Source: Candidatus Uhrbacteria bacterium (GTDB lineage Bacteria; Patescibacteriota; Patescibacteriia; 2-12-FULL-60-25). From it: DNA of 64,000 bases. Of the stretch, positions 61,050-64,000 are shown piece by piece. The notes beneath the pieces are model-generated. The model was not told where the DNA came from and did no database searches. It saw only the letters and a list, made by a program, of their open reading frames with translations. The stretch is from contig JADZEJ010000002.1 of NCBI GenBank assembly GCA_020850575.1, positions 1 through 64,000 of the forward strand, given 5' to 3'. Both the position numbers and the translations under genes were made by a program. Positions within the stretch are counted from its first letter, which is position 1; each line of letters opens with the position of its first letter.

Positions 61050-62225
61050 ATGGCAATACGTTCTTCTCCTCGTTCAGTATCTCGTGATCCGTTTCCACGA
61101 CCGCCAGCCCCGGCTTTGTACCGGAATATCGCTTTTTCATTTTTAGGTATTACTATTTTGGTCGTTTTGGGTGTGCTATGGCTCTCATCAGTACGTGCAC
61201 GTGTTGTGATTTCGGTCAAAAGTGATACTACATCCGCACAGGCTTCAGTTGAGGTTTCTCAAAGTCCAGAACAAGGACAATTACGAGGAAAAGTAGTGCA
61301 AGGTAACTTTGATAAAATGCAAGAATTCAGTGTAAAACAACGTGAAGATGCTCAAATTGCGCAAGATGTGGAAGTGAGTGGAACCGTGAAAGTGATAAAC
61401 AATTATTCCAGGCAGCAGACTTTGGTAAAAAATACACGCTTATTAACATCTGATGGTCGTTTGTATCGTTTGGATAAAACAATTGTCCTTGATCCAAAGG
61501 ACACAGTTACAGTAACAGCAAAATCCGATCAAAAAGGACGACAGTATGTTATGGCTGCTGGAACCAAGTTAAGTATTCCAGGTTTATGGATAGATTTGCA
61601 GAAATGGATTTATGCTGAGTCTGTAAGCGGCTTTACGGGTGGTCAATTGTCGAATGTAAAGGTGGTAAGTCAGTTGGACGTGAATGAATCACAGAAAGCT
61701 TTAGAAGATGCAGTCTATGAACAAGCGGTAAAAACGTTAACGGCAGAGGCGGGTGTTTCTCCGGATTGGAAGGCGTATTTTACAAAAAAAGTTATTGAAA
61801 AAAAGACAAATGTGACACCTGGACAATCATCGGATAATTTTTTAGCTTCTGTAAAATTAGAGGTTACCGGTGTCTTTTTTCCAAAAGCAGATATGGAGGC
61901 GTTAGTTCGTCAAAAATTACGCGAACGTTTACCAGATGGTCGTGATTTAATTAATTTTGATTCAAATGCGATTACCTATAACGTAGAACAAGTTGACGCA
62001 GAATTGCAACGAGCTCGTTTTTCGGTGTCTTCGCAGGCATTATCACGTTTGACGGATAAAAGTCCGGCATTATCAACCGATGTGTTTGCCGGACTTTCGA
62101 TTGATGAAGCAAGAACGAAGCTTATGAGTGTAGATGGAGTTCAGGATGTTCAGATTGAGGTGTATCCAGGTTGGATTAAAAAAATTCCTTCAAATGTTAA
62201 ACATATCGAAGTGATTGTAAAATAA
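61050..62225 (+). CDS. membrane-anchored protein with large outer domain, unknown
   Basis: The 391-residue protein has a basic N-terminus with Pro/Arg clusters (SSPRSVSRDPFPRPPAP). One membrane helix follows (IAFSFLGITILVVLGVLWL), then an extracellular domain of about 320 residues. A recognisable part is GTVKVINNYSRQQTLVKNTRL with DGRLYRL, which resembles Ig-like adhesion or baseplate-J-like domains found in CPR proteins. Near the C-terminus DEARTKLMSVDGVQDVQIEV looks like a repeated alpha/beta unit. I cannot assign a function. A TATCAT box lies 11 nt before the ATG at 61050; the TTG at 61029 is less likely. It is followed by the T-box leader of thrS. Confidence 0.72.
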   Translation: MAIRSSPRSVSRDPFPRPPAPALYRNIAFSFLGITILVVLGVLWLSSVRARVVISVKSDTTSAQASVEVSQSPEQGQLRGKVVQGNFDKMQEFSVKQREDAQIAQDVEVSGTVKVINNYSRQQTLVKNTRLLTSDGRLYRLDKTIVLDPKDTVTVTAKSDQKGRQYVMAAGTKLSIPGLWIDLQKWIYAESVSGFTGGQLSNVKVVSQLDVNESQKALEDAVYEQAVKTLTAEAGVSPDWKAYFTKKVIEKKTNVTPGQSSDNFLASVKLEVTGVFFPKADMEALVRQKLRERLPDGRDLINFDSNAITYNVEQVDAELQRARFSVSSQALSRLTDKSPALSTDVFAGLSIDEARTKLMSVDGVQDVQIEVYPGWIKKIPSNVKHIEVIVK

Positions 62226-62243: not shown

Positions 62244-62272
62244 TTGACTTTTGAAATACTGTTTATTATGCT
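62244..62272 (+). promoter_or_regulatory. promoter of the thrS leader
   Basis: TTGACT (62244-62249), a 17-nt spacer and TATGCT (62267-62272). The predicted start is near 62279. This would truncate the outer base pairs of the candidate stem I that begins at 62275, so one of these two predictions may be slightly off. Confidence 0.5.
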
Positions 62273-62274
62273 GT

Positions 62275-62466
62275 ACACATTGGATTCACCAACCAAGTGT
62301 TTTATTCGGTCGCGAAATGCGGACGTATAAGATAAAAATATAGAATAAGTGTCTATACAATTTGTTACATTGTATAGAAATACGGGTGGAACCGCGGTTA
62401 GTTAATGCTAATCGTCCCGATGTTTTTTGTTAATCTTTAGGGATTACGTTAGGGCATCGGTTTTTT
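62275..62466 (+). ncRNA. T-box riboswitch upstream of thrS
   Basis: The diagnostic T-box GGGTGGAACCGCGG is at 62384-62397. Its right arm (GCGGTTAG) pairs with CTAATCG after a six-base loop, and GGG pairs with CCC at 62416-62418: the antiterminator. The alternative terminator pairs CCGATG (62417-62422) with CATCGG (62455-62460), followed by six Ts, and reuses the antiterminator 3' arm. A hairpin CTATACAAT/ATTGTATAG precedes the T-box as stem III. A possible stem I (ACAC-TTGG with CCAA-GTGT) has the loop ATTCACCAA, containing ACC, a threonine codon. Uncharged tRNA-Thr should favour thrS expression. Stem I seems unusually short. Confidence 0.85.
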
Positions 62467-62517
62467 AGTTTCCGATTTTCTTCTCATTTCATTTATTTAA
62501 TTTATCTTTCTATTTTT

Positions 62518-64000
62518 ATGGATTTTCCTCTCGAAACTCGTCGTCATAGTGCGGCGCATGTGATGGCTGCGGCAATCAAACGTTTGTTTCCATCGGCGAA
62601 GTTTGGTGTTGGTCCAGTGATTGAACATGGTTTTTATTATGATATCGATATTGGTCGTTCATTAGAACCAAATGATCTAGAAGATATTAATAAAGAAATG
62701 ATCAAGATCGTGAAGGAGAATCCATCTTTTGAACGGATTGAGCTTCCGATTGATGAAGCGATTGTTCAATTTAAAACATTGGGTCAAGTGTATAAGGTTG
62801 AATTGTTGAATGACTTAAAGACACGTGGCACAACGAAGATGTCCGCTGAAGATTTACATGACTTTGGAGCTGATGTATCTACTGTCTCTATATATAGAAC
62901 AGGTGATTTTATCGATTTATGTCGTGGTCCACATGTAAATGAAGCACGTGATATTGGTGCTTGGAAATTACATAAATTTTCTGCGGTTTATTGGCGAGGT
63001 AAGGATGAAAATCCATCTATGCAGCGCATTTATGGTTTGTCTTTTGCAACCAAAGAGGATTTACAGGCTCATATTCAGATGATGGAAGAAGCTGAGAAAC
63101 GTGATCATCGTAAACTTGGAAAAGAACTTGGATTATTCGTATTTTCTGAATTAGTGGGTTCTGGTTTGCCATTATGGACGCCAAAAGGAACTATTATGCG
63201 AGAATTGTTACATGATTTTGTGTGGCAATTACGTAAACAGCATCATTATCAAAAAGTAACGATTCCACACATTACTCGTAAGGATTTGTATGAGGTTTCT
63301 GGTCATTGGGCAAAGTATGCCGATGATTTGTTTAAAATTGAAACACGCGATAAGCATTTGTTCGCGATGAAGCCTATGAATTGTCCTCATCACACGCAAA
63401 TTTATGCGAGTGAGCAGCGTTCGTATCGCGAATTACCTGTTAGATATGCAGAAACAACCATGGTGTATCGTGATGAGCAGTCCGGTGAATTATCCGGTTT
63501 ATCACGAGTTCTTTCGATTACGCAAGATGATGCTCACGTTTTTTGCCGCGTGAATCAGGTAGCGCAGGAAGCGGAGATTGTGTGGAATATTATTTCTGAA
63601 TTTTATGGTACTTTTGGATTTGAATTGCAACCTCGCTTGTCACGTCGTGATCCTCAAAAACCAGAAAAATATCTTGGAAGCGTGGAGGATTGGGATTCGG
63701 CAGAACGTGCTTTAAAAGGGATATTGGAAGAAAAGCAATTGCATTGGATTGATGGACCCGGTGAAGCAGCTTTTTATGGGCCAAAAATCGATTTCATGGC
63801 TAAGGATTCCATTGGAAGAATACATCAAGTCGCGACAATTCAATTGGATTTTAACCAGCCAAAGAATTTTGGTTTGAATTGTATCAATGAGGCGGGGGAA
63901 AAAGAGCAAATTTTGATGATCCATTGTGCAATAATGGGCTCAATTGAACGGTTTATGGCTGTTATGATCGAGCATTTTGCGGGATCTTTTCCATTGTGGT
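62518..64000 (+). CDS. thrS: threonyl-tRNA synthetase, partial at the window end
   Basis: ThrRS charges tRNA-Thr. The frame is open to the window end (about 494 residues). The protein starts directly at the editing domain (ETRRHSAAHVMAAAIKRLFP, with the H-x3-H metal motif) and lacks the N-terminal TGS domain. The class II core shows the zinc cysteine in KPMNCPHHTQIYA near residue 288, motif 2 RYAETTMVYRDEQSGE, QDDAHVFC with the second ligand, and motif 3 MIHCAIMGSIERF. In motif 3 the usual HRA reads HCA. The C-terminal anticodon domain lies beyond the window. Expression is controlled by the T-box leader immediately upstream. Confidence 0.95.
   Translation, partial: MDFPLETRRHSAAHVMAAAIKRLFPSAKFGVGPVIEHGFYYDIDIGRSLEPNDLEDINKEMIKIVKENPSFERIELPIDEAIVQFKTLGQVYKVELLNDLKTRGTTKMSAEDLHDFGADVSTVSIYRTGDFIDLCRGPHVNEARDIGAWKLHKFSAVYWRGKDENPSMQRIYGLSFATKEDLQAHIQMMEEAEKRDHRKLGKELGLFVFSELVGSGLPLWTPKGTIMRELLHDFVWQLRKQHHYQKVTIPHITRKDLYEVSGHWAKYADDLFKIETRDKHLFAMKPMNCPHHTQIYASEQRSYRELPVRYAETTMVYRDEQSGELSGLSRVLSITQDDAHVFCRVNQVAQEAEIVWNIISEFYGTFGFELQPRLSRRDPQKPEKYLGSVEDWDSAERALKGILEEKQLHWIDGPGEAAFYGPKIDFMAKDSIGRIHQVATIQLDFNQPKNFGLNCINEAGEKEQILMIHCAIMGSIERFMAVMIEHFAGSFPLW

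Follow-up and report, generated by a model that had tools for sequence, protein, structure and literature searches.

A short threonine T-box leader upstream of thrS in an ultrasmall bacterium of the Patescibacteria

Published T-box riboswitches of classes I to IV contact their tRNA through the IDTM, which acts on the tRNA elbow, through the S-turn of stem II at the anticodon, or through both (PMC10482949). In transcriptional T-boxes the IDTM has been called essential, as it serves to catch the tRNA before RNA polymerase reaches the terminator (PMC7583486). The leader of the threonyl-tRNA synthetase gene studied here raises the question of which contacts suffice: in the family of its host neither an IDTM nor a stem II is visible, yet the predicted control is transcriptional. 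We suggest, with a probability of roughly 0.88, that this leader is a minimal form of a transcription-attenuating threonine T-box riboswitch, a reading built on sequence comparison and folding.

The leader and its recognition by covariance models

The window, a 64-kb stretch of DNA from an ultrasmall member of the Patescibacteria, carries the leader at positions 62280-62466 of the forward strand, where it precedes thrS; the stop codon of the gene upstream of it lies at 62225. The encoded threonyl-tRNA synthetase (ThrRS) was recognized by the NCBIfam model TIGR00418 (513 bits against a cut-off of 384). The part of ThrRS encoded in the window (62518-63999) starts near the second additional domain, and a Pfam match to the N-terminal TGS domain was not obtained for it. 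The elements of the locus are as follows:

62244-62272, forward strand: predicted promoter TTGACT-17-TATGCT with a predicted +1 at about 62279; its geometry is repeated in relatives
62280-62296, forward strand: specifier hairpin, the whole of stem I, with a 4-bp stem (TTGG/CCAA) and the 9-nt loop ATTCACCAA; supported by covariation and the hold-out match
62288-62290, forward strand: specifier codon ACC (Thr), for tRNA-Thr(GGU); loop position common to relatives, and a tRNA-Thr(GGU) gene is present
62297-62346, forward strand: linker with an optional, unconserved hairpin; the S-turn and F-box of a stem II are not recognizable
62347-62351, forward strand: RRRNG motif AAGUG, 5' of stem III; motif found in 18 of 19 family leaders
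62352-62378, forward strand: stem III, TCTATACAAT/ATTGTATAGA; all 7 of its 7 pairs covary in the family
62383-62419, forward strand: antiterminator with helices A1 (CGGG/CCCG) and A2 (GCGGTTAG/CTAATCGT), -14.9 kcal/mol; supported by folding and covariation
62387-62393, forward strand: 7-nt T-box bulge UGGAACC, inside the antiterminator
62417-62466, forward strand: terminator hairpin CCGATG/CATCGG followed by U6, -15.7 kcal/mol
62518-63999, forward strand: thrS (threonyl-tRNA synthetase), ATG at 62518, extending past the edge of the window

A search of the whole 64-kb window with the Rfam T-box model RF00230 did not reach the gathering score. A local scan aligned the model end to end with positions 62271-62422 (37.4 bits, E = 5.8e-7; gathering score 93), and this shortfall was counted against the T-box reading. 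It is explained by the long stem I that the model expects, as only 12 nt of the leader stand opposite the model's 85 nt of stem I. Because RF00230 found almost no match in this section, a separate covariance model was built from the leaders of 11 relatives, with the window excluded. The thrS leaders of relatives had been collected via a protein search together with an RF00230 search, and the same parts are present in them. With the hold-out model the leader scored 58 bits in the window (64 kb searched; E = 2e-12, as against 0.32 for the runner-up), and the thrS leader is its sole match in the 1.04-Mb genome of the host. Across 12 family leaders, standard pairs occupy 94.8% of the pair cells, and both sides have changed in 15 of the 22 pairs; slid controls reached at most 55.5% paired cells and 9 double-changed pairs. 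The hold-out match and the TIGR00418 gene confirm that the T-box leader before thrS is real and lies where the preliminary description had placed it, with its boundaries now refined.

The specifier hairpin and the start of the transcript

In the preliminary description, the best candidate for stem I was a single short hairpin whose nine-base loop holds ACC. This hairpin has proved to be conserved among relatives: 100% of its stem cells are paired, and three of the four pairs have changed on both sides. The specifiers of the relatives (ACC, ACA, ACG and ACU) are synonymous and always encode Thr, so that the specifier matches the regulated amino acid both in the window, with ACC before thrS, and in relatives, with ACN. 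ACA occurs in leaders L009 and L152, ACG in L017, L100 and L165, and ACU in L103. Genome G010, with an ACA specifier, possesses a tRNA-Thr(UGU) with U73, and genomes G008 and G017, with ACG, possess a tRNA-Thr(CGU), also with U73. A loose search finds such hairpins in 19% of shuffled leaders as well; reliance is therefore placed on codon identity, covariation and the hold-out model.

The promoter geometry recurs in 19 of 20 family leaders, and a promoter score of 9 was reached by 2.9% of shuffled upstream sequences. In 17 of the 19 family leaders with a promoter, the distance between the predicted +1 and the hairpin ranges from -3 to 5 nt; the hairpin would therefore form the 5' end of the transcript, as judged from predicted promoters. 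An extension of the stem to 8 bp by ACAC/GTGT (62275-62278 with 62297-62300) was rejected, since the predicted start of transcription comes after ACAC. The hold-out model recovered no longer stem I either, and the promoter just upstream leaves no room for one. The long stem I, IDTM and internal specifier loop that characterize Classes I and II are hence absent from the window's leader.

Discriminator, terminator and proposed mechanism

The discriminator of the leader is canonical, consisting of RRRNG (as defined in PMC7778990), stem III and AA, the UGGAACC bulge and an antiterminator/terminator exchange. AA follows stem III (62379-62380) in the window and is found in 19 of 19 family leaders. 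Folding indicates that the terminator takes up the 3' strand of antiterminator helix A1. A terminator scan with a loop limit of 8 nt gave no match on the leader, but folding does show the hairpin, and terminator-like hairpins with a U-run are found in 71 of 87 related leaders. The T-box core, the stem III and the exchange reported initially are thus all borne out by family covariation and folding, and the predicted terminator with its U-run, together with the exchange, agrees with the transcriptional control proposed there. A further expectation, that UGGA in the bulge calls for a tRNA-Thr ending in UCCA, holds for all three of the host's own tRNA-Thr genes (GGU, UGU and CGU); each ends in UCCA, and UGGAACC can thus pair with U73 of every isoacceptor. 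Of the two findings that the preliminary description had named as refuting its view, a longer stem I and an incompatible tRNA-Thr discriminator, neither was obtained.

The sequences establish the hairpin, the identity of its codon, the matching tRNAs, the discriminator, the terminator and the position of the promoter; from these parts we infer tRNA binding, the sensing of tRNA charge and the direction of control. Transcription would start at or a few bases from the short hairpin, whose apical loop would display ACC. The anticodon of an uncharged tRNA-Thr(GGU) would pair with this specifier, and the UCCA at the tRNA 3' end would pair with UGGA of the T-box bulge, thereby stabilizing the antiterminator and permitting RNA polymerase to read into thrS. 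The 3' end of a charged tRNA would be unable to dock, and the terminator would form. The tRNA could be caught early by a codon loop that has the shape of an anticodon loop before binding and stands at the very beginning of the transcript; a strong codon with two G-C pairs may help in the capture, with the UCCA contact supplying the remainder. More tentatively, binding that lacks an elbow-binding module and a stem II might depend mainly on the anticodon-like codon loop and the UCCA/UGGA pairing.

Comparison with known classes, alternatives and distribution

The thrS leader resembles Class II, represented by Bacillus subtilis glyQS, in its transcriptional control, its stem III and antiterminator, and the single-stranded linker found where other classes have stem II, but it has none of the long stem I, IDTM and internal specifier loop of glyQS. 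Class I-type leaders also occur in the host's own class (L168, L185 and L215); they resemble the window's leader in the regulated gene thrS (L168, L185), the ACC specifier (L215), the discriminator and the terminator, whereas they retain a long stem I with an AGAGA-type distal loop. With Class III (Nocardia/Mycobacterium ileS, with an ultrashort stem I) it has in common the short stem I, the apical specifier, the canonical discriminator and the lack of an IDTM. The Class III loop comprises 5-6 nt as opposed to 9 nt in the window and 7 nt in the wider class, and the leaders of the host's family possess neither a conserved stem II or IIA/B nor a K-turn. Furthermore, control by a sequestrator, isoleucine and Actinobacteria on the one side stand against a terminator, threonine and Patescibacteria on the other, and the mostly translational control of Class III is not found here.

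The leader might nevertheless be a Class III-like T-box of the actinobacterial ileS type, in which the linker conceals a divergent stem II that laterally stabilizes the apical specifier. Class III itself combines a short stem I and an apical specifier with the lack of an IDTM (PMC10482949), the 55-nt linker of the window folds into a hairpin that may be a private, divergent stem II, and a K-turn-like GCAATGA..GGAGC lies beside the apical specifier in some Saccharibacteria thrS leaders and in the host's own proS leader. We regard this alternative as unlikely. Family linkers span 22-76 nt including RRRNG and usually only 22-39 nt; many are unstructured, no conserved stem II was found across them, and linkers of the usual size could not accommodate both a stem II and a IIA/B pseudoknot. 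Neither an AGUA/GAA S-turn nor an F-box was seen in the window's linker, which was judged by inspection only, and the loops of 7 or 9 nt and the transcriptional control likewise speak against Class III.

Less probable still is that the specifier loop serves mainly as an internal lock, its UUCACC being paired to GGUGGAA in the T-box bulge until tRNA-Thr releases it. Predicted minimum-energy folds do contain this pairing: that of the isolated leader lacks the specifier hairpin and joins the specifier loop to the T-box bulge, a point against the minimal T-box reading, and GGU of the T-box core is complementary to ACC. This complementarity follows, however, from ACC being a Thr codon; relatives with an ACG loop, as well as the loop ACUAACCAA, can form only 3 pairs, and glycine leaders present GGC, and in all of them the hairpin is still kept. 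That the leader is a degenerate or dead remnant could be argued from several relatives (thrS at 69-75% identity) that have no T-box upstream of the gene, but we consider it very improbable, as no part of it is damaged, the promoter spacing, the discriminator motifs and the terminator being preserved as well, and compensatory changes keep the pairs.

Collecting leaders from relatives, as the preliminary description had advised, revealed that the minimal threonine T-box with a short hairpin is the rule in the host's family and common in its class. A 12-sequence model built from short forms, so that the counts favour these, matched in 192 of 381 genomes of the host's class (E of 0.01 or less) and in 68 of 380 genomes of the phylum (E of 0.001 or less). 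Among 110 loci fetched from the class, 88 group with thrS and eight with glyS by their downstream protein. About 40% of the sampled members of the host's family gave no match to the model, which indicates that the element is dispensable. We found no description of T-box riboswitches in Patescibacteria, Saccharibacteria or the Candidate Phyla Radiation in the open-access literature.

A second specifier arm, N6-GAUUG-N6-YUACCAA-N6'-...-CUAA-N6', was found in 50 leaders of the wider class; its parts are P0, GAUUG, a 6-bp stem, the 7-nt loop YUACCAA, and CUAA. P1 is paired to 98% and P0 to 87%, with 288 double-changed cells versus 77 after shuffling; P0 is somewhat favoured in these figures, as the CUAA site was chosen among several by P0 pairing. 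P1 hairpins were selected by the pairing of their four inner pairs, which makes codon identity the more independent test: 51 of 136 7-nt loops carry a Thr codon at the specifier position, where 3.45 are expected after shuffling. Here, too, the promoter places the predicted +1 where P0 begins or close to it; in 44 of 48 cases GAUUG follows 3-12 nt downstream. Anticodon loops follow the pattern Y32, U33, three bases, A37 and A38, and the loop CUACCAA fits it; the window's 9-nt loop resembles an anticodon loop less closely than do the 7-nt loops found across the wider class.

Several further leaders were observed in the course of this survey. The host's own genome carries a second T-box before proS, on contig C1 at 141158-141315 (L021 1659-1816, reverse strand; RF00230, 53.5 bits). 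Its short hairpin, with the loop TTCCCAG, is flanked by a K-turn-like GCAATGA..GGAGC, and an F-box-like CCGTTA is also present. Either CCC or CCA can be read in this loop, while tRNA-Pro(UGG) and tRNA-Pro(CGG) are the sole proline tRNAs of the genome. T-boxes with Thr specifier loops (CUACCAA/CCACCAU) are located immediately before GNAT acetyltransferase genes in L166, L176, L182 and L206, and a threonine-related function of these proteins is possible. In glycyl-tRNA synthetase leaders (L188, L237, L238, L241, L244) a short apical loop carries GGC, and some of these leaders also possess a K-turn-like GCAATGA..GGAGC; hence, the apical specifier form is not confined to Thr. L256 is a T-box with the 7-nt loop TCTTAAA (Leu UUA specifier) upstream of a D-aminoacyl-tRNA deacylase gene. 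Canonical long-stem-I T-boxes that exceed the RF00230 cut-off are found at L001 1501-1743 and L002 1501-1735; their specifier may be UGG (Trp), and the gene following L001 has a weak match to a glutamate--cysteine ligase model, with that of L002 similar by eye.

We lean slightly towards viewing these leaders as a fifth T-box class, widespread in Patescibacteria, that would be transcriptional without an IDTM or stem II and would hold the tRNA by the UCCA/UGGA contact together with an apical 5' codon loop resembling an anticodon loop (Y-U-codon-A-A); in the wider class, a new P0/GAUUG/CUAA junction would carry this loop. The Rfam model misses such leaders at its cut-off, and many are therefore probably unannotated. 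If this view is correct, a widespread transcriptional form without IDTM and stem II would show the smallest sufficient set of contacts, it would become testable whether the codon loop mimics an anticodon loop, and T-boxes would be extended to the Patescibacteria, a group whose gene regulation is poorly known.
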